From the NCBI RefSeq assembly GCF_014202505.1, contig NZ_JACHGW010000004.1:682001-746000 (forward strand): a DNA stretch of 64,000 nucleotides. The letters are read 5' to 3'. The notes under the pieces were generated by a model. That model worked only from the letters and a program-made list of their open reading frames with translations. It had not been told where the DNA came from and made no database searches. Shown in pieces: positions 5,066 to 35,718 of the stretch; position 1 is the first letter of the stretch; every line of letters begins with the position of its first letter. A program made the translations under genes and the position numbers. The DNA is from Armatimonas rosea (lineage in GTDB: Bacteria; Armatimonadota; Armatimonadia; Armatimonadales; Armatimonadaceae).

Positions 5066-5146
5066 GGTGTCTCGTTTCCTTCTTGAGGCAGTATCGGCCA
5101 TGTCCGCAACACAAACGCAACACCGGCGCAACAAGAAATTTTCAGG

Positions 5147-6073: not shown

Positions 6074-8578
6074 CTAGACGCAAAAACTCTGGGCGAGCGC
6101 CTGAGCCGCCTCCAGGCTCAGGCTCTTGCCCTCTTCCAGCAGGGTCGCCAGGCGCTCCGGGCCAAGCAACGTCTCCAGTGCTGCTTGTCGCTGGTCGTGC
6201 TCCCGCTGGTCCTCGGGGGCGAGCGGAAGGCCCTGGCGGCGACGCTCCAAGGCGGCGGCTCCCCAGAGCCGCGCGGCACTCTCCCCGTCTTGACGCTGGG
6301 CAGCCAGCTCGCCGATTCCCTCCCAGAGCTCGGGGAACCAGGAGGTCAGGTCGTTCTCCAGGGCGAGCTTTAGCCCCACCCCGAACTCTTGAGTCGCCAG
6401 CGTGAGGTCGTGCAGGAGGAGCCCCACCCAGCCCAGGTTGATATGCACCACCCCCGCCCCCACGGAGTTGGTCTCGTAGTAGGTCAGGCACTCCTGCAGG
6501 CTCTCCAGCGCCTCCGCGCCACGCCCAAGAGCCCGGTAGGTCACCCCAAGGTTGTTCAGCGAGGACCCCACGCCCGCAGTGTCTCCCAGCCGCCGTCGTA
6601 GGGCAAGCGCCTCCCGGTGCTGGCGGAGCGCCTCTTGCAGGTCGCCCGTCACCCGCGCCAGCACGGCCAGGTTGTTGTGCACCGCCGCGACTCCCGCCTC
6701 ATCGCCCACCGCCGTGTAGAGAGCGAGCGCGGTCTCTTGCCACTGGCGGGCCTGCTCACGATCGCCCGCGCGTCGGGAGAGAATCCCCGCGATCCGAAAG
6801 CCCTCCGCCCGCACCCCCTGAGCGCCCTCGGTCGCGCCTAGAGCCCGCTCCAGATAGGCGAGGCCCTCGCGCAGGTGCCCCCGGTAGAGCCAGAAGTCCT
6901 TCAGCCGGACACAGAGCTCCAGCGCGAGGGCAGGGTCCGCCAGCTCCTCAAACGCCGCCTCGACCGCGCCACGAAGGTTCGCCGTCTCCGCCGGGTCGGT
7001 GAGTAGGGTTGCCGCGTTCTCCCAGCAGTAGCGCGTGTGCCGTCGCAGAAGCCCCCGGCGCTCGTCGGGGGGGAGTAGCTCGGTGGCGAAGGCGCGCAGC
7101 AGCTCCAGCATCTTCCAGCGCTGGCTCGCCCCACGCTCCTCCACAAAGACCAGCGAGCGGTCGCGCAGGGTCGCCAACTCATCGAGGATCTCCCCCACTC
7201 CCTCGCCGCAGATCGCCTCCGCGGCCGCGAGGGTCCAGCCTCCCGAGAAGACCGAGAGACGGGCAAAGAGCTGCTGCTCCGCCTCGGTCAGCTCGCGGTA
7301 GCTCCCCTCCATCAGGGCGCGCAGGCTCCGGTGGCGGGCAGGGATATCCCGATCCCGGGCCTCGATCTCGTGGAGGCGCTGGGAGTAGCGCTCCAAGAAG
7401 GCCTCGGGGCTCAGCTCACGGCAGCGTCCCGCCGCCAGCTCCAGCCCGAGGGGGAGTCCCTCCAGCCGCCGACAGATCTCGCCAATTGCCTCGGCGTTGC
7501 GTGCGTTCAGCGAGAACTCGGGGCGCTTTGCCTGGATACGGTCGAGGAACATCCGCACCGAGGCACAGAGGTACATCCGCTCCGCTGTCAGCCCTTGTTC
7601 GGGTACGGCCAGGGGCATGACAGGAAGCTCCCGCTCTCCTGCCAGATCCAGAGGCTGTCGGCTTGTCACGATGCAGCGCAGGGTGGGGATAGTTGTCAGC
7701 AGGGTGCGTACCAGCTGCGGCGCTCCCCGGGGGACGAGCTGCTCGATGCCATCTAGAACGAGCAGCGGAGCCTCCAGCTGCTGGAGTATCTCCGTCGCCT
7801 GCTCAAGAGGGTCTTGGAGGGGCTGCCGCAGGTTTCCCGTGGCGACAATCACCGCCTCGGGGAGCCGGGAGAGCGCCTCCAAGTCGCCGCAGGAGACAAA
7901 GACCGGGGACGCGCTGTGGGCCCGCTGGAGCGCCCGTACGGTCTCGATTCCCAGCCGGGTCTTCCCGCTCCCGCCCGGGCCCGTCAGGCTCACCAGCCGC
8001 GTCCCCTCGGTGAGGGCCTCCACCAGCCAGTTTAGCTCACGCTCACGCCCAAAGAAGCGGGTGAGGGGCAGGGGCAAGGCCAGCGGAAGCGGAGCGGCGA
8101 CAAGGGGGACCGCCTCGGTGCACTTGCTCTGGGCGCTCTCTCCCAGGAGCTCCAGCCGCCCTCGCTCCTGTAAGACCCACTCGTCCCAGAAACCTTCCAG
8201 CAGGGGCTCCCGACCGAGGGTTGCCGCCAGCCGCCACTCGCCGGCACGGTAGGCGCGCTCAAAGGCGGCGACATCGGTGGTGAAGCTCCCCGGACGGAGC
8301 CCCAGGGTCAGCCGATCCGCGATCAGAAGCTCTTCCTGACTGGGAAGCTCCAGGGTCTTGCGGAGGACGGAGAGCTCCTGGCGCAGGCGTGAGCGGCCCT
8401 CTTCGAGGAGCGCATCGGGCCAGATGGCATCGCAGAGACGCTCACGGGAGTGTTGTTTTGGAAAGAGCGCCAGGTAGGCGACAATTGCACGGGCGCGCTG
8501 GGTACGGAAGTGCGCAATCGGCTCCCCGTCGCGCAGCACTTGAAAGGTCCCAAACAGTTTAATCTCGTAGTGTGACAC
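6074..8578 (-). CDS. SARP/AfsR-like transcriptional regulator (winged helix, NTPase, TPR)
   Basis: This 834-residue protein combines an OmpR-type winged helix and short BTAD domain (residues 1-150, beginning YEIKLFGTFQV), an AAA/NB-ARC-type ATPase and C-terminal TPR-like helices (about 590-780). The ATPase opens with FFGREREL and shows a Walker A GPGGSGKTR near residue 200 and a Walker B-like LLVLDGIEQL. This is the architecture of STAND-class transcriptional activators, which oligomerise on ligand or partner binding. The start is GTG with no clear Shine-Dalgarno. The VanZ-like gene ends 14 bases upstream on the same strand, suggesting co-transcription. The target genes are unknown. Confidence 0.85.
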   Translation of the reverse strand: MSHYEIKLFGTFQVLRDGEPIAHFRTQRARAIVAYLALFPKQHSRERLCDAIWPDALLEEGRSRLRQELSVLRKTLELPSQEELLIADRLTLGLRPGSFTTDVAAFERAYRAGEWRLAATLGREPLLEGFWDEWVLQERGRLELLGESAQSKCTEAVPLVAAPLPLALPLPLTRFFGRERELNWLVEALTEGTRLVSLTGPGGSGKTRLGIETVRALQRAHSASPVFVSCGDLEALSRLPEAVIVATGNLRQPLQDPLEQATEILQQLEAPLLVLDGIEQLVPRGAPQLVRTLLTTIPTLRCIVTSRQPLDLAGERELPVMPLAVPEQGLTAERMYLCASVRMFLDRIQAKRPEFSLNARNAEAIGEICRRLEGLPLGLELAAGRCRELSPEAFLERYSQRLHEIEARDRDIPARHRSLRALMEGSYRELTEAEQQLFARLSVFSGGWTLAAAEAICGEGVGEILDELATLRDRSLVFVEERGASQRWKMLELLRAFATELLPPDERRGLLRRHTRYCWENAATLLTDPAETANLRGAVEAAFEELADPALALELCVRLKDFWLYRGHLREGLAYLERALGATEGAQGVRAEGFRIAGILSRRAGDREQARQWQETALALYTAVGDEAGVAAVHNNLAVLARVTGDLQEALRQHREALALRRRLGDTAGVGSSLNNLGVTYRALGRGAEALESLQECLTYYETNSVGAGVVHINLGWVGLLLHDLTLATQEFGVGLKLALENDLTSWFPELWEGIGELAAQRQDGESAARLWGAAALERRRQGLPLAPEDQREHDQRQAALETLLGPERLATLLEEGKSLSLEAAQALAQSFCV

Positions 8579-19144: not shown

Positions 19145-19213
19145 GGTTGTAAACTCTCCTCTAAAAAAATAACTGCCCCTGTTAGAGTGCCGCAGCGCCG
19201 TTTTGGTTTCCGA

Positions 19214-19228
19214 TATAATCCCCCCATG
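19214..19228 (+). promoter_or_regulatory. TATAAT-N6-ATG: predicted leaderless promoter
   Basis: Perfect TATAAT at 19214-19219, then six C residues, then the ATG at 19226 of the metalloprotease lipoprotein. The arrangement supports this ATG rather than one 13 codons upstream, which would lie before the promoter. Confidence 0.5.
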
Positions 19229-19846
19229 AGAAACAAACCTTTACTGACTCTGGCGCTGGTGCTGGTCCTCGCGGGCTGTGGCGGCGGCGGCACGACTCCC
19301 CCTCCCAGCACCACGGACTACTTCGATGAGCTCTCTCTGAGCCTGCGCTGGTCCAGCACCAAGACCGCCAACCCGCTGAAGGTCTTTATCGGCAAGGATG
19401 GCACCACGGACCGCTCCACCGAGGTCATGGCAGGCGCGACCTCGTGGTCGGTGGCGACCAGCAACCTGGTGCGCTTCACCCAGACCGATACCGCGGCGGA
19501 TGCGGATATCACGGTGACGTTTAGCGATACGGTCGATACCTCTGATGGTGGTGTCGGGCTGGCGTCGGTGAGCTTTGCCATTGTCCCAGGCAACCCGACC
19601 GCCGATGGCATTATCCAGTCAGGGGCGATCACCCTCAAGACCGGGATCGCGAGCAATATCATCCTCCCGACCATGCAGCACGAGCTCGGGCACGCGCTTG
19701 GGATTGTCGGGCGCAACAAGGGCGACAATGGGCACAGCTCCTACGATGGCGATGTGATGTTCCCGGTGATCAAGACCAGCTCGTCTCTGAGCACGCGGGA
19801 TGCCGCGACCCTGATCAAGCTCTACGCCACGAGCCGAAAGCGCTAA
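19226..19846 (+). CDS. Lipoprotein metalloprotease, metzincin/matrixin-like
   Basis: This 206-residue protein has a lipoprotein signal peptide with lipobox LAGC (Cys18), so it should be acylated and anchored to a membrane. The zinc site is HELGHALG (His152, His156), followed by VMFP (Met178), a metzincin-type Met-turn. The C-terminal LSTRDAATLIKLY is typical of matrixin-like proteases. The usual third ligand spacing HExxHxxGxxH is not met; His170 after an insertion is the likely substitute. It may cleave surface proteins; no partner is adjacent. Confidence 0.8.
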   Translation: MRNKPLLTLALVLVLAGCGGGGTTPPPSTTDYFDELSLSLRWSSTKTANPLKVFIGKDGTTDRSTEVMAGATSWSVATSNLVRFTQTDTAADADITVTFSDTVDTSDGGVGLASVSFAIVPGNPTADGIIQSGAITLKTGIASNIILPTMQHELGHALGIVGRNKGDNGHSSYDGDVMFPVIKTSSSLSTRDAATLIKLYATSRKR

Positions 19847-20076: not shown

Positions 20077-20688
20077 CAAAGATCACAACAACTCTCTTTT
20101 CTCGTCGCCGCTGTCTGCCTGGCCGCTTCTGCGTCTGGGCAGCAGCGTGCCATCGAGGTCGGCAAGGCCCTTCCGGTCACCAGTGCGACAGCCGCAACCG
20201 GCCCCTGGCTGGAGCGAGCCCCCCTCAATCCCGCGACCTACGGGCAGACCCGTGGGGTGAGCCCCGCCACCTCCCCTGAGGCCAAGATCGTCCTCTACAC
20301 CCCGACCCTCAGCGAAGACTTCTTCAAGCTCGCCCGCCGCGTGGACAGCCTGATCGAGAAGCACCCCGAGCTGAAGTGGTCGTTTGTCCAGGTCAGCGAT
20401 CCCAAGGGCGCCCAGCGAGGGGGCTACACCGCCGACGAGCTCAAGACACGCCTCGCGGAGCTCAAGACCCTGGCGGAGAGCCATGAGCTCAAGCACCTCT
20501 CGCTTGTTGTCGCCGCCCCCGCAGCACGCCCGGGCAGCAGCACCATCACGCTCGCCTTTACCAAGCAGAGCACGGCGAAGTACCAGCACCCCGTTGTCGC
20601 CTGGACCGGGCAGACCGATGAGGCTAAGCTCGATCGCGCGACCATCGAAAAACTGATCGGGGAACTCTCTGCTACAATAGGCGAGTGA
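20074..20688 (+). CDS. Secreted protein of unknown function
   Basis: This 204-residue protein has a signal peptide (about residues 1-22, ending ASASGQ). The mature part is alternating strand and helix, with no cysteines and no known catalytic motif. Its pattern (LYTPTLSEDFFKLARRVDSL, then LSLVVAAPAA) hints at a thioredoxin-like or flavodoxin-like alpha/beta fold, but this is a guess. Its last codons hold the promoter of the next gene and overlap it by 4 bases (GTGA). Confidence 0.65.
   Translation: MQRSQQLSFLVAAVCLAASASGQQRAIEVGKALPVTSATAATGPWLERAPLNPATYGQTRGVSPATSPEAKIVLYTPTLSEDFFKLARRVDSLIEKHPELKWSFVQVSDPKGAQRGGYTADELKTRLAELKTLAESHELKHLSLVVAAPAARPGSSTITLAFTKQSTAKYQHPVVAWTGQTDEAKLDRATIEKLIGELSATIGE
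20673..20687 (+). promoter_or_regulatory. TACAAT-N6-GTG: predicted internal leaderless promoter
   Basis: TACAAT at 20673-20678, six bases (AGGCGA), then the GTG at 20685. It lies inside the 3' end of the previous gene, so the phosphatase gene could be both co-transcribed and separately started. Confidence 0.42.
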
Positions 20689-21476
20689 ATACTACCTACC
20701 TAGAAACCGCCGTCTCTCTCGCCCGGCAGGCGGGGGAGATCGGCCGGACGATCTTTCTCACCGCCCGCGAGAGCACCTGGAAGTCCGACAACACCCCCGT
20801 GACCGAGGCGGATATCGCCATCAACGATCTCGTGATCCGGGAGCTCTCCCGGCTCTACCCCGACCACGCGATTATCGGGGAGGAGTCCAGCCAGCCCCAC
20901 GCGGGTGCGAGCCATGTCTGGGTCTGTGATCCCATCGATGGAACCATCCCCTACGCGCTGGGAATCCCGACCTCGGCGTTCTCGCTTGGGCTGGTGATCG
21001 ACGGTGTCACGGAGGTGGGGGTCGCCTACGACTTCCACGCCGACCGGATGTACACGGCGGAGCGCGGCAAGGGGGCGTTCTGCAATGGTGTCCCCCTGAA
21101 GGCCTTTCAAGGCACCAGCCTGCGCGCCACGGTCTCCGATGTCGAGGGAATCTGGTGGAGCGGCTTTCCGGTCGGGGAGCTCACCCGCCTGCCCAGCCTC
21201 CTGGAGCGCGAGGGGAGCAAGATTTTGAAGGTCTGCTCGATGGTCTATGCCGGCCTGCTGGTGGCGCGCGGCGAGCTGGCGGGGATGATCAGCCGCGGCG
21301 ACAAGCCCTGGGATGTGGCCGCGATGGATATCATTGTCCGGGAGGCGGGCGGCTGCGTGACCGACCTGCAGGGCAACCCGCTCCGCTGCGATGGGCCGAT
21401 CCCGGGGAGCGTGGTCTGTGGGGCCGGGGTCCAAGACGCCTACCTCAGCCTGATCGATGAGGCCTTTGCGGAGTAG
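20685..21476 (+). CDS. Inositol monophosphatase family protein
   Basis: This 263-residue Mg2+-dependent sugar-phosphate phosphatase has the family motifs IIGEES (residues 63-68), CDPIDGT (81-87) and the late DKPWDVAAMDIIVREAGG. Members hydrolyse inositol phosphate, histidinol phosphate or 3'-phosphoadenosine 5'-phosphate. The start is GTG overlapping the previous stop as GTGA. It sits directly before the polysaccharide genes, so a role in making a sugar-alcohol precursor is possible but unproven. Confidence 0.9.
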   Translation: MNTTYLETAVSLARQAGEIGRTIFLTARESTWKSDNTPVTEADIAINDLVIRELSRLYPDHAIIGEESSQPHAGASHVWVCDPIDGTIPYALGIPTSAFSLGLVIDGVTEVGVAYDFHADRMYTAERGKGAFCNGVPLKAFQGTSLRATVSDVEGIWWSGFPVGELTRLPSLLEREGSKILKVCSMVYAGLLVARGELAGMISRGDKPWDVAAMDIIVREAGGCVTDLQGNPLRCDGPIPGSVVCGAGVQDAYLSLIDEAFAE

Positions 21477-21517
21477 AGGTGTTGGCCGCCTAGGTTTTGA
21501 CCGACAATACCCCTGAA

Positions 21518-22690
21518 ATGCGGCTGCTGATCGTCTCTCCCTGGTTCCCCTACCCGCCCGACAATGGGTCGCGCCTGCGGGCGTGGCACCTGATCCAGCG
21601 GCTCACGCAGCGCCACGAGGTCCGGCTGATTGTCGGGCGGCAGGACGATGCAACCGGCGAGGTTCCCCCCGGCATTCCCACGACCGTGGTCCCCTGGCTC
21701 TGGCACCAGCCCGGCGCGACCGGGAAGGCCGGTGCCCTCCGGGCTCTGTTTTCGTCGGTGCCGCGCTCGATCCTGGAGACCCCCAACCCCGCCTTTGTCG
21801 CCGCGATTGAGGCCGAGCTCGCCCTACAGCCCGATGCCGTGCTGGCGATGGAGCTGGGCAGCGATGCCTACCTCCCCGAGACCCTCCCCTGCCCGGTCTT
21901 CCTGGACCAGGTCGAGGTCTCGGGCCTGGAGCACGCCTGGCGGCAGGCAAGCCAGCCGCGGGAACGCCTGGCCCGCTGGCTGACGTACCAAAAGGGGGTG
22001 GGCTACTGGGGGCGACGGCTCCGGCGCTACCACACACTCACTGCGGTCTCAAAGGCCGAGGCGGCGGCGGTCGAGCGGGTCTCGGGGAAGGCGACTCTAG
22101 TCGTTCCCAACGGGGTCGCGACCGCTGAGTTTACCCCTGCCAATCTCAGCGAGACGGTCCCGGGGCGGCTGATCTACAACGGTGCCCTCTCGTACGGCCC
22201 GAATCGTGACGCGGTACTCTGGTTTGTGGAGGCGATCCTACCGAAGATTAAAGAGCAGGTCCCCGAGGCGCACTTGGTTGTGACGGGGCGGGCGGAGGCA
22301 GCTCCCGAGAGCCTTTGTCGCCACCCGCACGTGACCCTGACCGGGTTTCTCCCCGATCTGCGCCCCACGCTCGCGGTGGCGCAGGTCTGTGTCGTCCCGC
22401 TCCGTGCGGGCGGCGGGACTCGGCTGAAGATCTTAGAGGCTTGGGCCGCAGGGCTTCCGACAGTCGCCACGCCAATCGGGGCGGCGGGGCTGGAGGGAAG
22501 CGTCGCAGGCGAGCACCTGCTCCTGGGAGAGACCGCAGAGGCCTTTGCCCAGGAGACCATCACGCTCCTCAAGAGTGTTGAGCTACGGCAGCGGCTCGCC
22601 CGCAATGCCCGTGCTCTGGTCGAGGCGCGCTACGACTGGGACGTGATCGTGGAGGCACTCTCGGAGCACCTCGTGCAAGCAAGAAAATGA
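21518..22690 (+). CDS. GT4 glycosyltransferase, PEP-CTERM/XrtA-associated type
   Basis: This roughly 390-residue GT-B enzyme opens with MRLLIVSPWFPYPPDNGSR, the style of the sugar transferases linked to PEP-CTERM/exosortase loci. The C-terminal half has the nucleotide-sugar site with GGGTRLKILEAWAAGLPTVA, in which the glutamate is the usual GT4 catalytic or binding residue. It transfers a sugar from an activated donor at the cytoplasmic face. The start is uncertain: a TTG at 21497 is in frame, but the ATG at 21518 gives the normal N-terminus. It ends in a 4-base ATGA overlap with the ligase gene. Confidence 0.85.
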   Translation: MRLLIVSPWFPYPPDNGSRLRAWHLIQRLTQRHEVRLIVGRQDDATGEVPPGIPTTVVPWLWHQPGATGKAGALRALFSSVPRSILETPNPAFVAAIEAELALQPDAVLAMELGSDAYLPETLPCPVFLDQVEVSGLEHAWRQASQPRERLARWLTYQKGVGYWGRRLRRYHTLTAVSKAEAAAVERVSGKATLVVPNGVATAEFTPANLSETVPGRLIYNGALSYGPNRDAVLWFVEAILPKIKEQVPEAHLVVTGRAEAAPESLCRHPHVTLTGFLPDLRPTLAVAQVCVVPLRAGGGTRLKILEAWAAGLPTVATPIGAAGLEGSVAGEHLLLGETAEAFAQETITLLKSVELRQRLARNARALVEARYDWDVIVEALSEHLVQARK

Positions 22691-24327
22691 GTAAGGCAAG
22701 AGAAGAATTTTACGACGAGGCCACGATCTGGGGCGACGACTCCGACCGGCCCGTGCGCGATCTCATCAGCCAGGGAGCGGAGCAGAAACTCAAGCTGCTC
22801 GGGAGCGCCCTGGTGATTGGGACCGCGCTGGGAATCGGGGGCGTCCTGGCGTCGGGGGCGGGCACCAAGGGCCTGATCTGGCTTGCCATTGTCGTGCTGG
22901 GGATGGTGGGCGTGATCACGGTCGCCAGCTACCTGGAGGTGGGCGTGACCCTCTTTATCGCCGCCTGCTGGTTCCTCTTCAAGACCCCCGGCCTTGCCCA
23001 AGGCCAGGGGGGCGGTGGGGAGCAAGGGCTCGCGCTCAGCCAGATCGGCCTGGTCTTGCTCCTCTCCGCCTGGGGGCTGCGGCGCCTCTTCCGCCCCGAT
23101 GGCAAGCTCTTCCGCACCCCCCTGACCGCCCCGATCTTTGCCTATCTCTTTATCTGCGCCTGGTCGACCATCCACAGCCTGCTCTTCCCCGACAGCAATA
23201 TCGAGCGTGGCCTGATCACCGCTACCCCGATAGCGGTGAACGTCCTTGAGAACATCCTCCGGGTGCTGGCGCTGGGCGGCCTGCTTCTTGTCGCCAATGT
23301 GGTCACGCCGCGCGGAAAGGGCCGCATGGCCGCGATGTTTATTGCCGCCGGCGTGCTCTTGTTTCTCTTCTCGCTTCAGACCAAGACCAACAACATGGAC
23401 CACCCGGTCGGGCTGGCGCGCTATGTTCCGGGGCAGGGCTACGGCGCCTTTCCCCAGATGATGATTGTCGGGGTGCTGGCAGCGCTGGCGGTCTCGGGGA
23501 TCGGCAAGCGCTGGCAGCAGGCCGTGATGCTCACGGTCGCGCTGACGATCTTTGGCTGGGCGTTTGTCCGAAATGCGGAGTGGGTCTCAGGCTGGCTTGC
23601 CGGCGGCTTGGCGCTCGCCATAGTTGTCTTCAATGCCCGCCGCAAGCTCTTCTGGATCGGAGTGGGCGTGATCGCGGCGATTGTCTTGCTGAACTTTGGC
23701 TACTTCTGGGACAAGTTCTACAAGATGAACTTCTATGCGGGCGGGCACATGAACTGGGGAGTCGCCACCCTGCGTGGCCAGGAGATCGGTGCCCTGGAGA
23801 ACGACCGAAGCCGGATGCTACGCGCTGCCTTCCAGTACGCCGATGCCTTCCCACTCGGGGTTGGGCTGGGCAACTACAAGAACTACAACCACCACTACGG
23901 CTCCCCGACCGTCTGGAACTCCACGACCTTTACATCGGCGCACGGCACCTACGCCCAGACCCTCTCGGAGCTCGGCTGGCTGGGCCTGCTCGCCCTTCTC
24001 TGGCTCCAAGGCGCAACTCTCATGACTCTCTACCGCTTCTGGAGGGCTCTGCCTACGGGGACCTGGGAGAAGGCCTGGCTCCTGGCGACCTACGCCGGGT
24101 GCTGGGGGATCTTTGCCGCCACCTTCCTGGGGGACTATATCTTTCCTAGCTACCACAACGGCGCGATGGCCTCGTTTGGCGGGACGGTCTATGTCTGGCT
24201 CTTTGCGGGGTTTGGGATCGGGCTGGCGCGCCTGCGCGGCCTCACCTGGGCGAGCGCGACGGGCAAGGGGATCAAGAAACCCCGGCCCCAAGCGCACTGG
24301 GTTCGCCCCACGGAGGGCAGACCATGA
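22687..24327 (+). CDS. O-antigen ligase/polymerase family membrane protein
   Basis: This 546-residue protein has about ten to twelve membrane helices. The Wzy_C-type segment includes FPLGVGLGNYKNYNHHY and then TSAHGTYAQTLSELGWLGLL, the histidine-containing loop shared by WaaL ligases and Wzy polymerases. It polymerises or transfers lipid-linked glycans on the outer face of the inner membrane. The N-terminal 35 residues are hydrophilic and cytoplasmic. Start and stop overlap the neighbouring glycosyltransferase genes by 4 bases each, so stoichiometry is likely coupled. Confidence 0.85.
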   Translation: MSKAREEFYDEATIWGDDSDRPVRDLISQGAEQKLKLLGSALVIGTALGIGGVLASGAGTKGLIWLAIVVLGMVGVITVASYLEVGVTLFIAACWFLFKTPGLAQGQGGGGEQGLALSQIGLVLLLSAWGLRRLFRPDGKLFRTPLTAPIFAYLFICAWSTIHSLLFPDSNIERGLITATPIAVNVLENILRVLALGGLLLVANVVTPRGKGRMAAMFIAAGVLLFLFSLQTKTNNMDHPVGLARYVPGQGYGAFPQMMIVGVLAALAVSGIGKRWQQAVMLTVALTIFGWAFVRNAEWVSGWLAGGLALAIVVFNARRKLFWIGVGVIAAIVLLNFGYFWDKFYKMNFYAGGHMNWGVATLRGQEIGALENDRSRMLRAAFQYADAFPLGVGLGNYKNYNHHYGSPTVWNSTTFTSAHGTYAQTLSELGWLGLLALLWLQGATLMTLYRFWRALPTGTWEKAWLLATYAGCWGIFAATFLGDYIFPSYHNGAMASFGGTVYVWLFAGFGIGLARLRGLTWASATGKGIKKPRPQAHWVRPTEGRP

Positions 24328-26216
24328 CCCCCGATCTCTCGATTGTGATTGTCTCCTGGAACACGAAAGCGCTCCTCAAAGACTGCCTGGAGAGCATTCA
24401 AAATGTCGCCCGCGCCGAGGTCTTTGTCGCCGATAATGCGTCATCAGATGGCAGCCCCGAGCTCGTGGCGAGTGCGTTTCCCAACGTCACGCTGATCCAG
24501 ACGGGTGCGAATCTGGGCTTTGCCAAGGCCAACAACCTCGCGCTGAAGCAGGCGAAGGGCCGCTACTGGCTCCTGCTCAACTCCGACACGCTGGTCCCCG
24601 ACGGTGCCCTGGAAAGGCTGGTAGAGGCAATGGACGCCCACCCCGAGGCGGCGGTCGCGGGCTCGCTGCTGCTCAATGGCGACGGCACGCTCCAGCACTC
24701 CTGGGCACGCTTTCCCAGCTTCCAGAGCGAGCTCTCCGGTGCCCTAGAGCGCGGCCAGTGCCCCTACACCGACACGCAGCTCCTCGACGAGGCCACGCGC
24801 ACCTCCCTCGCCCCCTTTGCTTGTGACTGGGTAGGCGGGGCGGTCTTCTGTGTCCGTGCGAGCGCAGCGCAAAAGGCCGGTCTGCTCGACGAGAAGTTCT
24901 TCATGTACAGCGAGGAGACCGAGTGGTGCCACCGCCTGAAAAAGCGAACCGGCGGCACCACGCTTCTCATCCCCGCATCGGTCGTGATCCACCTAGGTGG
25001 CGGCTCCAGCCGCGCGGTTCCCAAGGCCACGCGTCAGCGCATGTGGCGCTCCAGCCTGCGCTTCTTCCGCCTCACCCAAGGCCCCCTCGGCGCGCTGCCC
25101 CCCAGCGCCGTCGCCACGGGGCGCTATCTCCTCTCCCCGCTCCGACGAAGCAAGCAGGCAGACACAGAAACGCCGCCCACGGATCCAAACGTTACCCTCG
25201 CACGCCTCAACCAGCGCGACCCTCTGACCAGTGCCCACAACCAGAAGGCGCTAGTGAGAGCACTGAACAGGCTCTCCCCAGGAACCGCACTCCTCTATCT
25301 CAATAAAGACGGTTTGATTTACTTCAACGACCAGTACGGGCACAGCTTCGGCGACCAAGTCCTGTGTGACCTTGTTGCTACCATCAAGCGCTCACTCCCC
25401 GCAGGCGCAGCTTACTTCCGTATCGGGAGCAATGAGTTTGCTATTCTGATCCCCCATGCCGAGTCTGCAAAGCTCGATGCATACGCCAAGACTCTTGTTG
25501 AGAACATTCCTGTGGCACTCCAGGAGCTCCTGGATGCCAACAACCTTGGCGGCTCGTCTTGCCCACTTGGGGTGCATATCGGCATTGCGCTCTCCGAGCC
25601 GACAGAGACGGGTGAGTCCCTCCTGAAGCGTGCCGACCTAGCCCACGACGTAGCCAAGCGCCTTGGGATTGGGCGTGTGGCCTGGGCACCCCCTCTCCTT
25701 CAAAACCCAGACCCGCTGACTGGGGTTGGGCATTGGGAGGCATTTCCGCTGCGGGGGCACGAGCCTGCAAACGGTGCGACCGTGCTTGCTCTGGATATCG
25801 ATCACCTCAAAGACTTCATGGATACCAATGGACTGACAATGGGTGATAGCTTGCTCCAGCGAGTTGGGGAGGTGCTCTTGCAGTCCACCCTTCGCGGCAT
25901 GGAGGTCTACAGAACGAGCGGTGGGACGTTTGCCCTGATTCTCACCTCCGAGTGGAGCGTCCATGTCCCGACCGTGGCACAGAAGCTCGGGGAGGCGGTC
26001 AACGCGGCGATCTTCTACTTCATTCAGAATAACAAGCTGACGTTTCCTCAGAAGCAAACGACACTGAGCATGGGAATCGCACAGGCACACGCCGAGGAGA
26101 CTCTCGAAGCCCTCACCCAGCGCGCGGAGGCAGCCCTAAAGCAGGCAAAGGCACAAGGGAAGAACCGGATCTGCTGGGCGGAGGAGCCGTCTGCGGCGAC
26201 GGAGCACGCGGCGTGA
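24324..26216 (+). CDS. GT2 glycosyltransferase fused to two degenerate GGDEF domains
   Basis: This 630-residue protein joins three modules. Residues 1-240 are a GT2 rhamnosyltransferase-like enzyme: SIVIVSWNT, ADNASSDGS, the donor/metal site LLLNSDTLVPD (Asp88) and the acid region MYSEETEWCHR. Residues 298-455 (RDPLTSAHNQKAL) and 462-618 (PDPLTGVGHWEAF) are GGDEF-type domains. Both are degenerate. In the first, GGDEF reads GSNEF (368-372) and the first metal aspartate is Asn327. In the second it reads SGGTF (532-536), although LDIDHLK is kept. No RxxD inhibitory site is correctly spaced. They are therefore probably sensory or structural, perhaps binding c-di-GMP or GTP to control the transferase. 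No membrane helix is clear. The gene overlaps both neighbours by 4 bases inside the polysaccharide operon. Confidence 0.88.
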   Translation: MTPDLSIVIVSWNTKALLKDCLESIQNVARAEVFVADNASSDGSPELVASAFPNVTLIQTGANLGFAKANNLALKQAKGRYWLLLNSDTLVPDGALERLVEAMDAHPEAAVAGSLLLNGDGTLQHSWARFPSFQSELSGALERGQCPYTDTQLLDEATRTSLAPFACDWVGGAVFCVRASAAQKAGLLDEKFFMYSEETEWCHRLKKRTGGTTLLIPASVVIHLGGGSSRAVPKATRQRMWRSSLRFFRLTQGPLGALPPSAVATGRYLLSPLRRSKQADTETPPTDPNVTLARLNQRDPLTSAHNQKALVRALNRLSPGTALLYLNKDGLIYFNDQYGHSFGDQVLCDLVATIKRSLPAGAAYFRIGSNEFAILIPHAESAKLDAYAKTLVENIPVALQELLDANNLGGSSCPLGVHIGIALSEPTETGESLLKRADLAHDVAKRLGIGRVAWAPPLLQNPDPLTGVGHWEAFPLRGHEPANGATVLALDIDHLKDFMDTNGLTMGDSLLQRVGEVLLQSTLRGMEVYRTSGGTFALILTSEWSVHVPTVAQKLGEAVNAAIFYFIQNNKLTFPQKQTTLSMGIAQAHAEETLEALTQRAEAALKQAKAQGKNRICWAEEPSAATEHAA

Positions 26217-27292
26217 GGGTGGTGATCGATGCGCGCCCGCTCTCGCACCCGCAGGCGGGCGGCTACCGCTCGTACGTGAGTGCGCTGGTGCGAGGGCTCG
26301 CGGAGGTGAAGCCGGCCGATGTGGAGGTGCTCCTCTACCTAGACCGCCCGACCGAGACAGCCTTTCCCTTCGAGACCCGCGTGCTCTCACCATCGCGCCT
26401 CAAGACCGACTTCTGGCTCTTTGCCCAACAAGTGCGCCGCGACAAGCCCGAGCTCGTGCACGGCACCGTAAACTACCTGCCGCTAGGGCTCTCGTGCAAG
26501 ACCCTTCTCCTGCTCTACGATGCCCTCTTGCTCAAGCGCTACCCGTGGGAAGGGAAGGTGCAGCGCTCGCTCCGGCAGCGTGTGCTCAATGGCTACTGGA
26601 CCACGCTCATGCGCCACTCCGCCCAGAGGGCGACCAAGACCTTCACGATCTCCCACGGTGCCGCGCAGGAGCTGGCATCGGTGCTGGGTGGGAGCCCCGA
26701 GCGCTTCCCGATTGTCCCGATTGGACTGACACTTCCCCTACCAAGCGCGGGAGTGCGGCATGAGAAGAACTCGATCCTGGCGATCGCGGCACCGGACGCC
26801 CGAAAGAATATCGAGGCGGTCTACGATGCCCTACCGCTCCTGGCAGACCTGGCACCGACTCTGAAGCTAGTGTGTACGTCGGCGCGGACAGCGGAGGTGG
26901 CCGAGGCGGAGGTGGCACGGCGTGGGCTAAAAGGGGTGAAGCTCCTGCGTAGCCTCGACAACCAGGCGCTCTCGGATGCCTACGCCGGCGCAAGTGTCTT
27001 TGTGTTTCCGTCGCGCCTGGAGGGCTTTGGCCTGCCCCCTCTAGAGGCGATGCAGGCAGGGACACCGGTCGTGGCCTCGCACGCTCTGCCGATGCCGGAG
27101 ATCCTCGGGGACGCGCCCCTCTACTTCGACCCGGAGCAGCCCACGCAGCTCGCTCAGGCCGTCCGCCGCCTCCTCACCGACCCGGCGGCTTGGACCGAGC
27201 ATGCCCGGCGCGGCACGGTGCAGGCAAGCCGCTACACGCTCCGGGCGATGGCGGAGGGCACGCTGGCGCTCTGGCGGGAGGTCGGCGCGTGA
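26213..27292 (+). CDS. GT4 glycosyltransferase (mannosyltransferase-like)
   Basis: This 359-residue GT-B enzyme begins VVIDARPLSHPQAGGYRSYV, like WbaZ/PimB-type mannosyltransferases. It has the C-terminal donor site with FPSRLEGFGLPPLEAMQAGTPVVAS, whose E-x7-E pattern marks GT4. The start is a GTG overlapping the previous stop as GTGA, and the end overlaps the next gene the same way. It probably adds one sugar of the repeat unit; acceptor and donor are unknown. Confidence 0.87.
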   Translation: MRVVIDARPLSHPQAGGYRSYVSALVRGLAEVKPADVEVLLYLDRPTETAFPFETRVLSPSRLKTDFWLFAQQVRRDKPELVHGTVNYLPLGLSCKTLLLLYDALLLKRYPWEGKVQRSLRQRVLNGYWTTLMRHSAQRATKTFTISHGAAQELASVLGGSPERFPIVPIGLTLPLPSAGVRHEKNSILAIAAPDARKNIEAVYDALPLLADLAPTLKLVCTSARTAEVAEAEVARRGLKGVKLLRSLDNQALSDAYAGASVFVFPSRLEGFGLPPLEAMQAGTPVVASHALPMPEILGDAPLYFDPEQPTQLAQAVRRLLTDPAAWTEHARRGTVQASRYTLRAMAEGTLALWREVGA

Positions 27293-28503
27293 GCAAGCCC
27301 AAGGTTCTCTTTCTGGCGCACCTGCTCCCCTGGCCCCTCGACGGCGGCGGGCAGATCAAGTCCTACCATGTCCTGCGTCAGCTCGCGCAGGCCTACGATA
27401 TCACCCTGCTGGCCCTGATCCGCACCCCCGACGAGGCCAAGAACACCGAGCCGCTGCGCGAACTCTGCGTGGGCGGAGTCGAGGCGATCCCCATCCACCG
27501 GACACGGGTTCGCAATGCGCTTGCGGCGGGACGAGCCCCTCTGACCGGCGAGTCGTTTATTGTCACGCGGGACAACACCCCCGCTTTCCATGCCGCGGTC
27601 GCGCGGGAGCTGGCCACGGGAGCCTATGTCGCGCTCCATGTTGACCACCTCCAGATGGCGCAGTTTGTCCCCGCCGCCACGCTGGGTGTCAAGGTGATCC
27701 TCGATGAGCACAATGTCGAGTACCGGATTCCCCAGCGCCTCGCCGAGACGGCAAAGAACCCGCTCTGGCGCGTCTACGCCGCGGGAGAGTGGAAGCGTCT
27801 GCGGGAGTTCGAGCGCGGTGCTCTCAGACGCGCCGATCGGACGCTGGCGGTCTCCGACGAAGACAAGACCACGCTAGAGGATTTACTTGGGCCAAATAAG
27901 GGTAGAATATACACGCTACCCATTGGCGTGGACACCGACTACTTCGCTCCGCGCCCCCGAAAACCCGCCTCGAAGACCCTTGTCTCCATCGGAACGATGT
28001 ACTGGCCGCCAAATATTGACGCGATGCGCTGGTTTTGCGCGGAGATTCTGCCGAAGATCAAAGCGGGAGAGTCCGACACCCGCCTGACCATTGTCGGGGC
28101 GCGGCCCACCGACGAAGTCCTTGCCCTCGCGGCGGACCCGGCGGTGACGGTCACGGGCTCGGTGCCCGATGTGCGGCCCTATGGGGAGGACTGCGGTGCG
28201 TTTATCGTCCCCTTGCGCTCGGGGTCGGGGATGCGGGTGAAGATACTCAATGCGCTGGCGATGGGCCTGCCAACGGTCTCAACGACGGTTGGTGCAGAAG
28301 GGATTGATGTGAGAGACGGCGAGCATATCTTGCTAGCAGAGACGGCGGAGGAGTTTGCGGCGGCGACGCTGCGGCTGCTCTCGGAGCCGGACCTGTCCGC
28401 ACGCCTCGCCGCCAACGGCCGCCGCCTGATGGAGGAGCGCTACGGCTGGGACGCCATCGGTACGCAGCTCCGCCAGAACTACAGCGAGGTGCTTGCGCGA
28501 TGA
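27289..28503 (+). CDS. GT4 glycosyltransferase, PEP-CTERM/XrtA-associated type
   Basis: This 404-residue GT-B enzyme opens KVLFLAHLLPWPLDGGGQIK and carries VPLRSGSGMRVKILNALAMG in the donor domain, the same layout as the first and fourth GT4 proteins of this cluster. Those three look like paralogues. The start is GTG at 27289, overlapping the previous stop by 4 bases; an earlier in-frame start would run 99 bases into the previous gene. It ends with an ATGA overlap. Confidence 0.86.
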   Translation: MSKPKVLFLAHLLPWPLDGGGQIKSYHVLRQLAQAYDITLLALIRTPDEAKNTEPLRELCVGGVEAIPIHRTRVRNALAAGRAPLTGESFIVTRDNTPAFHAAVARELATGAYVALHVDHLQMAQFVPAATLGVKVILDEHNVEYRIPQRLAETAKNPLWRVYAAGEWKRLREFERGALRRADRTLAVSDEDKTTLEDLLGPNKGRIYTLPIGVDTDYFAPRPRKPASKTLVSIGTMYWPPNIDAMRWFCAEILPKIKAGESDTRLTIVGARPTDEVLALAADPAVTVTGSVPDVRPYGEDCGAFIVPLRSGSGMRVKILNALAMGLPTVSTTVGAEGIDVRDGEHILLAETAEEFAAATLRLLSEPDLSARLAANGRRLMEERYGWDAIGTQLRQNYSEVLAR

Positions 28504-29699
28504 AGCTCCTCTTTGTCACCCCGTATGTGCCGTCGCTGATCCGCGTCCGCACCTACCAGCTCCTGCGGCACCTGGCCCGCCGTGGCTGCAAGATCACCCT
28601 GGTCGCACTGGAAGATGCTCCCGTCTCCACGGCAAGCCGTGCGGAGCTGGCCGAGCTCTGTGAGAGTGTCCATCTCGTCCCACTAGAGAAGCCCGCCGCC
28701 GCCCTCCGCTGCATCGCGGCGCTCCCGAGCCCCAAGCCGCTCTGGGTGGCCTACTGCGACACCCCCGCCTTGAGAGCGACCGTGCGCCGCTTAGTGCAGG
28801 CGGAACAATTCGATGCCGCGCACGTCGAACACCTGCGCGCTGCCTCTGTCCGCTCTGCCCTGGGAGACCTGCCCTGTGTGCTCGATGCGGTCGACTGTAT
28901 CACCGCGCTCCAACGCCAGATGTTTGACCAAGGAGAACGACTAAAGGACCGGGCACTCGCCGGGGAGGAGTGGCTCAAGCTCCGGCGCTGGGAGCCGCGT
29001 GCCTACGCCGGCTACGATGCGATCGGGGTCACAAGCCAGTACGATGCGACCGCGCTCCAGGCACTGGGAACCCGCCCACCGCTCCATGTCATTCCCAATG
29101 GGGTCGATCTGGACTACTTCCAGCCCAACCCCAAACTCGCCCCCGAGCCCGACACGATTATCTTCAGCGGCAAGATGAGCTACCGGGCCAACGACGATGC
29201 CGTGCTGTGGTTTGCCGCGCAGCTCTGGCCCACGCTCAAGCGGGCGCGTCCGGGCCTGCGCTGGACCATCGCCGGCAACGAGCCGTCGGCGGCGGTGCGT
29301 GCGCTGGCTGCCGACCCCGCGATCACGGTCACGGGCTATGTCGAGGACCTGCGCCCCTTTATCGCCCGCGCCAGCCTCGCGATCTGCCCCCTGCGGATCG
29401 GGGTGGGAATTCAGAACAAGGCGCTAGAGGCAATGGCTATGGGCCGCCCCGTAGTCGCCTCCCCCATCGCGGGCCGCGCTCTCCCAGGCGCGATTACCGA
29501 GGGGGGACTGAACGTCGCGGAGGGAGCTCAGGACTTTATCGCCGCCTGCCTCGCGCTCCTGGAGAGCCCCGCCCAGGCCGAGCTTGCAGGGCAGGCCGCA
29601 CGCCGCTATGTCGAGCGCCACCACCGCTGGGACTGTAGCGCAGGTGCCTTTCTAGAGCTCTACGCCCGAGAGAAACAGCAGACAACACCCCGTGTATAA
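28500..29699 (+). CDS. GT4 glycosyltransferase, PEP-CTERM/XrtA-associated type
   Basis: This 399-residue GT-B enzyme begins [20 protein letters not shown]. Its C-terminal half has [20 protein letters not shown] and [18 protein letters not shown], both shared in style with the two related GT4 proteins upstream. The ATG overlaps the previous stop as ATGA. The function is inferred to be addition of one sugar to a lipid-linked glycan. Confidence 0.86.
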
Positions 29700-29721
29700 G
29701 CAGGAACGAGATCACATAAGA

Positions 29722-30411
29722 ATGGAATCACAGGTTTATTCGCCTCAGACCAAGGTAGCGGTTACCCCCGTTGCGCTCCCCAACACCAACATGCTCTACC
29801 TTACGTTGAAGCGTCTCATTGATATTGCCGGCTCGCTTTTTGGGCTCGTCCTGCTCTTCCCCCTGTTCTCCGTTCTTGCCATTCTCGTTCGCCTCTCGTC
29901 CGCCGGGCCGATCCTGCACCGCCGACGGGTCCTCTCGCACCAGCAGTACGAAGGGGGCACGCCCCAGAGCTTCGATGCCTTCAAGTTCCGCACGATGATC
30001 ACCAACGCCGATGCCTTTCTCGCCCAGCACCCCGAGCTGATGGCGGAGTTCCAAAAGGACTTCAAGCTGCGCGACGATCCCCGGGTGACCAAGGTCGGGC
30101 ACAAGCTGCGGCGCTCCAGCCTCGACGAGCTCCCGCAGCTCTTTAATGTCCTCCGGGGGCAGATGACCTTGGTGGGCCCACGCATGATCTCCCCGCCCGA
30201 GCTGGAGATGTACGGCGAGTACGCCGCCAAGCTCCTCTCGGTCAAGCCCGGCCTGACCGGGCTCTGGCAGGTGAGTGGTCGTCAGAATGTCTCCTACGCC
30301 GAGCGCGTCAAGCTGGACATGTACTACATCGACAACCGGACGCTCGGGATGGATATCGAGATCCTCCTGCGAACCGTGGTGAGTGTGCTCAAGCGCCAGG
30401 GAGCCTACTAG
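29722..30411 (+). CDS. Polyprenyl-phosphate sugar-1-phosphate transferase
   Basis: This roughly 229-residue bacterial sugar transferase (PF02397) starts glycan synthesis by moving a sugar phosphate from a UDP-sugar to undecaprenyl phosphate. It has one N-terminal membrane helix ([20 protein letters not shown]), then [34 protein letters not shown] and [14 protein letters not shown], the family's active-site string. It is the short form, lacking the four-helix extension of WbaP/WcaJ. The start is uncertain: a GTG at 29692 overlaps the previous stop by 8 bases; the ATG at 29722 is used here. Confidence 0.92.
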
Positions 30412-30420
30412 GCACCGACC

Positions 30421-32154
30421 ATGCGCCTGGGCCGTCTGGTTCGTAATATCCTCACCCTGCTCCTGCTGGCGCTTCCCTGCGTCGTGCTGCTGCCACGCCT
30501 CAACGCGCCGATCGCCCTGCCCGAGAGTGCGCTTGACCAGCTCCTGACCGCACGCTACACCGCCGCGCACAACCGCCTTGGTACCCCTGTCCTGCGCCCG
30601 CTTGACGTGGCGCGCCTCACGTCGTTTGGGGACGGTGCCCTCCCGGACATGCGCCATGGGATGCTCTATACTGGCCTCTCAGCGGTTGCGATGAAGGTGC
30701 TCCACGAGACCCAGGGCGGCCAGGGCCAGCGTGCCGCGACTCTTCTCGGGATGGGGCTGCTCCTCACGGGAGGGCTCGTGACACTCTGGCTCTACCGGCG
30801 CTGGTTCCCGCAGCGAGACAACAAGCTGGCGGCGTTTTTCTATGTCTGGAGCGGCGGCGCGCTCCTGGCAGCCGTTCTCCCCGGTCCCGGCCTGCTCCTG
30901 GCGATCCTCGGGGGGCTTCTCTGCGCGGCCCTCGTCTCGCTCGATGTGACCAGTAGTAGTAGCCGCTCGTCGCTCTGGCTCGCCCTGGCAGCGGGAGCGC
31001 TCTGGGGGCTCTTATTTCTGTCGCTGTACTCCGCACTGCTGCTCTTGCCGTTTCTGCTCTGGCAGGTTGTGGTCACGACGCGGCGGGATATTCGCGCGGT
31101 GCTGGCGTTCGTCGTGGCGGCGGGAGTCGTGGCCGCGCCTCAGCTCCTGCGTGCCCAGAAGTTTGCGCACAACCCGCTCTACCACAGCCGCGGGATCGAG
31201 CTGATCATGCGCACGGAGTCCCACCCCGGAACCGCGCTCTACCATGCGGTCTCGCTCCCCCGTACGGTCAGCACCTACCTGACCCACGGTGGTTTTCTGG
31301 AGGTACTGTCCAAGTCCGCCAGCACACTGGTCGAGCTCTTGCCACGCTCGCTGGGGACAGTCGGGCTGTGCTTGTTGCTCTTTATCACCTCGGGGCTGAT
31401 GCGCTTCACCGACCAGCGCCTCAACCGGCTCCGTCGCCTGCTGTTTTTGATGATTCCCGTGCACCTGATCGCCCTGAGCCTCTTCTTCCCCGCCGACGAG
31501 TGTGCGAGTGTTCTTTTGCTCTACGGGCCGGCGATTGCGGTGCTCGGGGCGGCGTTTCTGCAGACCACGATCCATGCCCGGCGGCTTCCTCGGCTCCATG
31601 CACGCGGGGTGCGGCTCGCCTGGACCGTCCTGTGCTGTGGCGCGGGGCTGGCCCAGCTTCTTGCCCTCCGCCCCGCCCCCGCCCCGATACGGCTCTACGC
31701 CTTTTTAGGCAATAGTGGCGCGTACTTGGACCGCCTCCAGACCAGCCACGACGGCGTCCTCGCTGCCGATGCGCCCGAGACCATGGCGCTGTACGCAGAC
31801 GTGCCCGTCACGCTCTTGCCCACCAGCTCCACCGACTTTCAGGAAGTAGAAGCACGGCTCAATAAAGAGATTGTCGGCTTTAGCCTGACCCCAAACCTGC
31901 GCTGGGACCGCCCCGAGGACACCGCGCTCCAGGCCTGGGGCGATACCTACCGCCGCGTCTTGGGGCTCTTTGCACTGACCCAGCTCATGCCCAACAACGA
32001 GCGGGAGACCTTGCGCCAGTACGTCTCCTACCCCGACTCTCTGATCGCCTCGATCCGCAGCTTCCAGGTCACCCCGATCCAGGAGCCCCAGCAGGGCAAC
32101 GACTACTCCGCCCTCTTCTGGGACATGGACTACATCCGCGCGATCCCACGCTGA
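30421..32154 (+). CDS. Polytopic membrane protein, GT39-like glycosyltransferase
   Basis: This 577-residue protein has an N-terminal helix, then an extracellular loop with acidic residues (PESALDQLLTARYTA). About nine more helices follow, and a soluble C-terminal domain begins near residue 420. This is the layout of GT39/ArnT-type enzymes that use polyprenyl-phosphate sugars at the outer membrane face. Similarity is by topology and the first loop only. It closes the polysaccharide run and overlaps the convergent Nudix gene by 25 bases at the 3' ends. Confidence 0.65.
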   Translation: MRLGRLVRNILTLLLLALPCVVLLPRLNAPIALPESALDQLLTARYTAAHNRLGTPVLRPLDVARLTSFGDGALPDMRHGMLYTGLSAVAMKVLHETQGGQGQRAATLLGMGLLLTGGLVTLWLYRRWFPQRDNKLAAFFYVWSGGALLAAVLPGPGLLLAILGGLLCAALVSLDVTSSSSRSSLWLALAAGALWGLLFLSLYSALLLLPFLLWQVVVTTRRDIRAVLAFVVAAGVVAAPQLLRAQKFAHNPLYHSRGIELIMRTESHPGTALYHAVSLPRTVSTYLTHGGFLEVLSKSASTLVELLPRSLGTVGLCLLLFITSGLMRFTDQRLNRLRRLLFLMIPVHLIALSLFFPADECASVLLLYGPAIAVLGAAFLQTTIHARRLPRLHARGVRLAWTVLCCGAGLAQLLALRPAPAPIRLYAFLGNSGAYLDRLQTSHDGVLAADAPETMALYADVPVTLLPTSSTDFQEVEARLNKEIVGFSLTPNLRWDRPEDTALQAWGDTYRRVLGLFALTQLMPNNERETLRQYVSYPDSLIASIRSFQVTPIQEPQQGNDYSALFWDMDYIRAIPR

Positions 32155-34212: not shown

Positions 34213-35718
34213 CTAGCGGAGCGCGGACTGCTCGCCCAGGCGGGGAGCGAGGTCGCTGCCCAAGACAACCGTGATATCGGGAACATTCTCACTCAGGCTT
34301 CCACTCCGGTCCGGCCCCAGGTCCTTCTTTACCGTCCCCCCCCCGAGGAGCTTGGCGATCATCTCCGCACGGGGCTTGTTGACCGCCCGTGTGAACTGGA
34401 TAGTCGTGGCCGTGGCCTGTGTCTTGGGGCCATCGGTGACATAGTCGGCATCGAAGTTCCCCTCGGCGCGTAGCAGCTCCGCCGCCCGGCGCGCCGCCCC
34501 CGAGATATCGGTTGCGTTCTGAACCGCGACCGTGGTCACCCGGTTGGCCGCCTTTTCGTCCCCGTAGACCAGCCACTGGACAAGCGCCTCGGTCTTGCGG
34601 CGGTCCGGGATGAAGAAGAAGGGCTTGTGCTTCTCAAACGCCCCTGCCAGCGTTCCTGAGGCCACTTGATCCGGCTGGGTGTTCCGGTAGAGCGAGGCGA
34701 TCGCAAAGATCTGCGGGCGCTCCAGGTTGGTGTCAAACTGCTTCAGCGCCGTGTCCACGAGCGTGTCGGCGTGCAGGATCTGGCGCTTCCCCGACGCGAT
34801 CATCGCGCGGATCATGTTCTGCTGGCGCACCATCCGGCGCGTGTCGCCATTTTCCTGGCACTGGTTGAGCGCGGAGATCTCCGCCGGGGACTTGCGCTTG
34901 AAGAGAGGCACACCCCGGCTATCCTTACCAACAAAGACAGCGGAGCCATCGGCGTTGCGGACATACGGGTCGATCTCACGATAGCGGCAGTAGCCAATGG
35001 CCTCATCGGCGGTGGCGATATGCACCGGCCCCTTGGGAAGCTTGACATGGAGCCCCGCCTTGAAGTCGTTGTACTCAATGGCGTCGATCGTCTCCACATC
35101 GACTCCGCCCAGCTCCTTGACCAGGTTCCCCACGGCATCGGGCTTCACGGCGATGTAGTAGTCGGGCTTGATTCCCGTGATATCCTCGACCGCCTCACAG
35201 AGAAGCGCGGGGCCGCCGCGTCCTGGGTAGGTATCGTTGCTCAGGGTGGCGTTGATCTTGCCTGTGTTGCCCGCGACTCGCACCCGGGTGTCACGAGGAA
35301 TGGAGAGCGCGGAGACATGGCGGGTCTTGAAGTCCAGCGAGAGCAGCATGATGGAGTCAGCACGGCTCGACTTCCCCGTGTAGCGCTGGTAGTTCTTGTC
35401 GTAGGAGTAGTCCTTGCCAATGAGCAGGACCGTGATCTGGTCTTTCTTGGGGAAGAACTTCGCGGGGTTGTTGTAGAGATCTAAGATATCACGGACACTG
35501 CTGCCCGGAAGTAGCTTTGGGAACATCTTGCCCGCCCAGATGCCTCCTGCCACAACGGCGGCAAGAGCCCCCAGCCCGAGGAGCTTCCCCAAGGGGTTGC
35601 CGCGCTTCCGTCGGCGGCCCGTGCGCCGCCCCACGGGAGGTAAGGGAGCAGGGGCGCTTGCACGGCGGTGTTGTGGGGGGGGAGGTGTTTTTCCGTTCAC
35701 TTTACTTCGTCCGTTCAC
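34213..35718 (-). CDS. LytR-CpsA-Psr (LCP) family cell-envelope glycan ligase
   Basis: LCP proteins transfer undecaprenyl-linked polymers onto peptidoglycan outside the membrane. The 501-residue protein has a basic cytoplasmic start, one membrane helix (LGLGALAAVVAGGIWAG, about 45-62) and the LCP domain (about 90-300). That domain has SSRADSIMLLSLD, LSIPRDTRV, GGVDVETIDAIEY and the arginine-rich RRMVRQQNMI. A LytR_C-type domain (about 390-480) follows. The start is GTG; a leftward TATAAT lies 8 bases before it. It may attach the glycan made by the nearby polysaccharide cluster, which is inference. Confidence 0.92.
   Translation of the reverse strand: MNGRSKVNGKTPPPPQHRRASAPAPLPPVGRRTGRRRKRGNPLGKLLGLGALAAVVAGGIWAGKMFPKLLPGSSVRDILDLYNNPAKFFPKKDQITVLLIGKDYSYDKNYQRYTGKSSRADSIMLLSLDFKTRHVSALSIPRDTRVRVAGNTGKINATLSNDTYPGRGGPALLCEAVEDITGIKPDYYIAVKPDAVGNLVKELGGVDVETIDAIEYNDFKAGLHVKLPKGPVHIATADEAIGYCRYREIDPYVRNADGSAVFVGKDSRGVPLFKRKSPAEISALNQCQENGDTRRMVRQQNMIRAMIASGKRQILHADTLVDTALKQFDTNLERPQIFAIASLYRNTQPDQVASGTLAGAFEKHKPFFFIPDRRKTEALVQWLVYGDEKAANRVTTVAVQNATDISGAARRAAELLRAEGNFDADYVTDGPKTQATATTIQFTRAVNKPRAEMIAKLLGGGTVKKDLGPDRSGSLSENVPDITVVLGSDLAPRLGEQSALR

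Follow-up and report, generated by a model that had tools for sequence, protein, structure and literature searches.

A glycosyltransferase of an Armatimonas rosea polysaccharide operon carries two predicted GGDEF folds with degenerate active sites

The DNA analyzed here (the window, 64,000 nucleotides) is taken from contig 4, positions 682001-746000, of the 6.3 Mb genome of Armatimonas rosea, phylum Armatimonadota, and contains a polysaccharide operon on the forward strand. The operon starts with an inositol-monophosphatase family protein (20685..21476; PF00459), a GT4 glycosyltransferase (21497..22690; 70% identity to its counterpart in the sister operon of the same genus) and a membrane protein of the Wzy/O-antigen-ligase type (22687..24327; PF04932; sister identity 73%). 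These are followed by a GT2 glycosyltransferase fused to two GGDEF domains (24324..26216), three more GT4 enzymes, the first directly downstream of the fusion (26213..27292; 75%) and the other two within 27190..29699 (at about 27286-28503 and 28500-29699), a WbaP-type bacterial sugar (priming) transferase (29692..30411; PF02397; 82%) and a 577-residue protein (30421..32154). The latter has about nine hydrophobic spans, matches no Pfam or NCBIfam model and is kept in the sister operon (62-69%); it is possibly a membrane glycosyltransferase or an export protein. Immediately upstream of the operon lies a gene for a 219-residue protein with similarity to matrixins (Peptidase_M10; 19187-19846, forward strand), and near the operon end a convergent gene (34213-35718, reverse strand) encodes a LytR-CpsA-Psr (LCP) family protein of the glycopolymer transferase type.

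The fusion gene is a single open frame of 630 codons that runs from ATG to TGA with no internal stop. A preliminary description of this DNA had read it as a complete GT2 enzyme with an Asp88 donor site, followed in the same frame by two GGDEF-type domains, and the uninterrupted frame, the Pfam matches and the LNSDT motif bear this out. The GT2 domain (residues 1-275, 24324..25148) contains DNASSDGS and, within LNSDT, the acidic donor-site residue Asp88; PF00535 matches residues 6-133 at 3.2e-24 (86.2 bits, where the cut-off is 23.3), no NCBIfam equivalog reaches its cut-off, and a simple hydropathy scan sees no membrane span in the domain. A linker (residues 276-298, 25149..25217), in which homology to the sister gene stops at LSPLRR, forms the left edge of the inserted segment; at the far end, the stop codon shares a GTGA (26213..26216) with the start codon of the GT4 gene that follows. 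A frameshift that fuses two neighboring genes, raised earlier as a way in which the reading could fail, finds no support, given the single open frame, the lack of a start codon at the junction and the stop/start overlap. There is no in-frame start between residues 256 and 310, and the first one after the GT2, a GTG at residue 311, is already inside the first GGDEF domain, which also speaks against a separately translated complete pair; the complete pair is thus produced only within the transferase.

The two domains, GG1 (25218..25688) and GG2 (25689..26183), were assigned by Pfam, structure models, Foldseek and a residue table. PF00990 matches the fusion twice (2e-40 for the whole protein), and the halves searched alone score 74.4 bits (1.2e-20) and 71.2 bits (1.1e-19), so far over the curated cut-off of 23.8 bits that the match is not due to chance. 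GG1 has a DPLT at residue 299, a Pfam match over residues 299-448 and the signature GSNEF at 368-372, and GG2 has SGGTF at 532-536; both signatures sit exactly where they had been reported. Because full-length and tandem alignments aligned single-GGDEF rows to either the GT2 or just GG1, each half was folded separately with AlphaFold2 from a 14-row alignment, giving mean pLDDT values of 90.4 for GG1 and 89.6 for GG2; the top Foldseek matches of both halves are all diguanylate cyclase GGDEF domains, at a probability of 1.00. By profile and predicted structure, GG1 and GG2 are GGDEF folds, the opposite of the outcome (residues 298-620 lacking this fold) that had been considered to speak against the assignment.

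Their active sites are a different matter. Residues D327, K332, N335, D344 and E371, in PleD numbering, are invariant across 33/33 GGDEF domains collected for comparison from the same genome, its relatives and fetched loci, and positions from this invariant set are changed in both GG1 and GG2. GG1 reads N, I, N, D, E at the five positions and has the further changes G369S and E370N and an Ile (I449) at the position of R446; it keeps the base-binding N335 and D344 while losing both metal ligands (D327N, E370N), the Lys (K332I) and a phosphate residue (R446I). GG2 reads D, K, M, D, T, with G368S, E370G, E371T and a Leu replacing a conserved His: the first metal Asp (D491) and the phosphate Lys residues are retained, and the base-binding Asn (M499 in protein coordinates), the His (L504) and both acidic signature residues (G534, T535) are gone. 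Neither domain combines the metal Asp, the base-binding Asn/Asp and a GG(D/E)EF signature, the set of residues by which a diguanylate cyclase was judged. Work on PleD has established that each half-site of a cyclase dimer binds one nucleotide through its own residues; the losses in GG1 and GG2, though complementary, therefore cannot make up for each other. With both sites broken, diguanylate cyclase activity appears very unlikely. The partial loss of metal and base residues noticed at the outset is therefore confirmed, with a different set lost in each domain, the metal/phosphate side in GG1 and the base side plus the acidic pair in GG2; the suggestion that the two may have split roles would fit these differing losses.

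An inhibitory site would show as an RxxD whose last residue lies five positions ahead of the signature, and neither domain has one, again in line with the earlier reading. At positions -9 and -6 relative to the signature, GG1 has P/A and GG2 has L/M, and an RGME in GG2 is one residue out of register. Since the motif is missing at this spacing, binding of c-di-GMP at the known I-site would not be expected.

Comparison with relatives points to when the pair arrived. The same-genus operon is collinear (GT4, Wzy-type, GT2, GT4, GT4, GT4, WbaP-type, 577-residue protein), with 62-84% identity per gene, and its GT2, 83-84% identical to the GT2 domain of the fusion, is free-standing: it has 279 residues, ends LSPLRRQQGA-stop and overlaps the next start in an ATGA. 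In the fusion, SKQADTETPP comes after LSPLRR and leads into the GGDEF pair, behind which the GTGA provides the stop/start coupling to the next transferase. Two further genera of the family (L012 and L013) likewise have a GT2 gene that leads to the same GT4 gene, leaving no room for GGDEF domains. The absence of the pair from the same genus and from two others marks absence as the ancestral state and places the gain on this lineage; about 1 kb encoding the pair appears to have entered the 3' end of the GT2 gene in frame. Conservation of the architecture in related genomes, named earlier as something that would support the reading, is not seen here. Among 291 genomes of the phylum, the pair has no relatives at E<=1e-16 besides itself, and none of the GT2 relatives at E<=1e-52 matches past residue 284; no record covers 80% of the fusion protein among 72,556 plasmid and 50,697 phage records. 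GT2-GGDEF-GGDEF is an architecture known from one genome, and the pair looks like a control or docking module that was grafted on recently.

The two domains share features that are rare elsewhere. The spacing between DxLT and the metal position is 28 residues in both GG1 and GG2 and in 0/33 of the comparison domains (31-52), and the 48-residue spacing after the signature, common to both, is reached by 2/33. Together with a 28% identity between GG1 and GG2, these spacings suggest a tandem duplication; in the tree, which does not settle it, the GG1 and GG2 branches are very long (2.85 and 3.55 changes per site). The best matches of the pair in its own and related genomes are generic GGDEF domains at about 27-40% identity, and viral contigs contain no relative of the pair. 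The GC3 of the GG1 and GG2 segments is 0.665 and 0.709, as compared to 0.80 +/- 0.05 in same-length segments of window genes (1/44 as low) and 0.75-0.86 in nine other GGDEF segments of the genome, which fits either an outside origin or relaxed codon selection; only the low GC3 suggests that the pair came from outside. The one candidate for an insertion scar is an 18-nt direct repeat with imperfect copies (78%; 25152-25169 and 26139-26156), the right one of which lies some 70 nt within the right-hand junction; it was not accepted as evidence of mechanism.

As to whether the module is being kept, the GGDEF part adds 350 open codons with normal codon-position bias. Hydrophobic core columns are retained at 29/33 positions in GG1 and 28/33 in GG2 (comparison range 29-33), and conserved polar and Gly columns at 17/21 and 15/21 (comparison range 18-21); in this one sequence, the pattern appears to be that of a fold kept without its chemistry. 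Recent insertion alone may account for the conserved core, and the very long branches fit relaxed constraint as well as they fit a new function.

We consider it about an even call that a free-standing GT2 of a Wzy-type operon gained, in a single lineage, a C-terminal two-GGDEF module that has lost cyclase chemistry and serves in dimerization or docking. In such a scenario, the ancestral enzyme would have been a free-standing GT2 within a Wzy-type polysaccharide operon, a probably tandem-duplicated module would have been inserted in frame between its last codons and the stop, and the diguanylate cyclase chemistry would have been lost in both folds. The module would then have been kept for its fold, as a dimerization or docking surface that positions or tunes one transferase, a role suggested by the fold family. 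GGDEF domains commonly pair with others of their kind, and a dead C-terminal pair could therefore make the transferase dimerize or let it dock to any of the 34 other GGDEF domains of the genome. The intact base-binding residues of GG1 may leave room for weak guanine-nucleotide sensing. Overall, the pair is most likely a non-catalytic accessory module that acts in dimerization, docking or weak guanine-nucleotide sensing.

One alternative holds that the pair is a passenger, a functionless and slowly decaying C-terminal insertion that is tolerated while the GT2 works as it does in relatives. The presence of the pair in one genome and its absence from the syntenic genes, the long branches, the low GC3 and the two broken catalytic sites would all be expected of such a passenger; by contrast, the 350 additional codons have stayed open with their codon-position bias intact, the fold core is largely retained where the active-site residues are not, both halves are modelled with high confidence, and translational coupling to the next gene persists. 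We consider a passenger improbable, although it deserves serious attention.

A nucleotide switch is likewise an unlikely alternative, though also one to be taken seriously. According to this model, the remnant pocket of GG1 would bind GTP or another guanine nucleotide, or the pair would bind c-di-GMP at a non-canonical site, to control the GT2 allosterically. The retained N335 and D344 of the GG1 base pocket are compatible with the switch, as are precedents in NfrB (MshEN), BcsA (PilZ) and degenerate GTP-sensing GGDEFs. The genome has 36 GGDEF matches, 34 of them besides GG1 and GG2, 13 EAL matches and one PilZ match; c-di-GMP turnover enzymes thus far outnumber PilZ receptors, making receptors of other kinds likely. 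Against the switch, GG1 has lost its two metal ligands and a phosphate residue, which weakens the case for GTP sensing, GG2 lacks the base-binding Asn, RxxD is found in neither domain, and the fusion is not conserved among relatives. The preliminary description had proposed a sensor or switch built into the transferase; the fusion itself and its place in a polysaccharide operon stand, c-di-GMP sensing through an I-site finds no support in the motifs, GTP sensing by GG1 is possible in the weakened form, and dimerization, which it also named, may act as a switch. A more elaborate version, in which the duplicated and catalytically dead pair forms an internal pseudo-dimer, either as a sensor of a guanine nucleotide or as a docking site for active cyclases, and thereby controls one non-processive step of Wzy-dependent assembly, seems rather doubtful; if true, the fusion would be a recent, single-lineage allosteric glycosyltransferase under direct signal control.

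The join between a GGDEF gene and the GT2 could be suspected to be an artefact of assembly or sequencing, since it is seen in a single genome and the sister locus lacks the segment. This is highly improbable: the segment keeps the frame at both ends and has a stop/start overlap as in the sister, no in-frame start precedes GG1, the segment matches other GGDEFs of the genome only generically, and the contig around it is 866 kb long and belongs to a 19-contig genome that is 98% complete and 0.43% contaminated.

Several known systems share parts of the logic of this fusion. NfrB of E. coli, a GT2 with a C-terminal MshEN that has been shown experimentally to be a c-di-GMP receptor (PMC8669469), likewise combines a GT2 and a C-terminal c-di-GMP-signalling domain in one chain of a polysaccharide system; however, NfrB is membrane-anchored, has processive-GT signatures and an intact receptor, whereas the GGDEF folds of the fusion show no known binding motif and its GT2 lacks a membrane span in the hydropathy scan. 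In the BcsA cellulose synthase, the GT2 is fused to PilZ (PMC8461298), again a signal-family domain C-terminal to the GT2, but the domain is a different one and BcsA is a membrane synthase that works processively and is conserved in many bacteria. PelD and BcsE are degenerate GGDEF receptors of polysaccharide systems (PMC8461298) and, as would be the case in the fusion, their catalytically dead folds serve polysaccharide synthesis, yet each is a protein of its own and binds c-di-GMP at an I-site of the RxxD type, the motif missing from the fusion. Finally, degenerate GGDEFs have been reported to act as GTP-sensing domains on EAL phosphodiesterases (PMC10333796); GG1, likewise an inactive GGDEF, could also have kept the ability to bind a guanine nucleotide, but those domains sit on a phosphodiesterase of the same pathway while GG1 sits on a sugar transferase and has lost both metal carboxylates. 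In logic, the fusion resembles known GT2-receptor and degenerate-GGDEF systems; by its motifs, it has neither what marks an active cyclase nor what marks an I-site receptor. No GT2 of Wzy-type assembly that carries GGDEF folds was found in the literature searched, which is weak evidence as coverage was partial. Rare GT2/GGDEF architectures may be listed in domain databases.

Receptor domains fused to glycosyltransferases are thus already familiar from the membrane synthases BcsA and NfrB. Here, the collinear same-genus operon without the module provides a natural with/without comparison, which makes it directly testable how the fold of a second-messenger enzyme is turned into a component of a metabolic enzyme that takes no part in catalysis.

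Two other genes of the window, both on the reverse strand, encode an 834-residue NACHT/AAA-type ATPase with TPR repeats (6074-8578), a layout known from regulatory and defence proteins, and a 992-residue protein (2156-5134) with matches to DUF7948, a beta-propeller (SBBP) and DUF11, which is probably surface-exposed or secreted.
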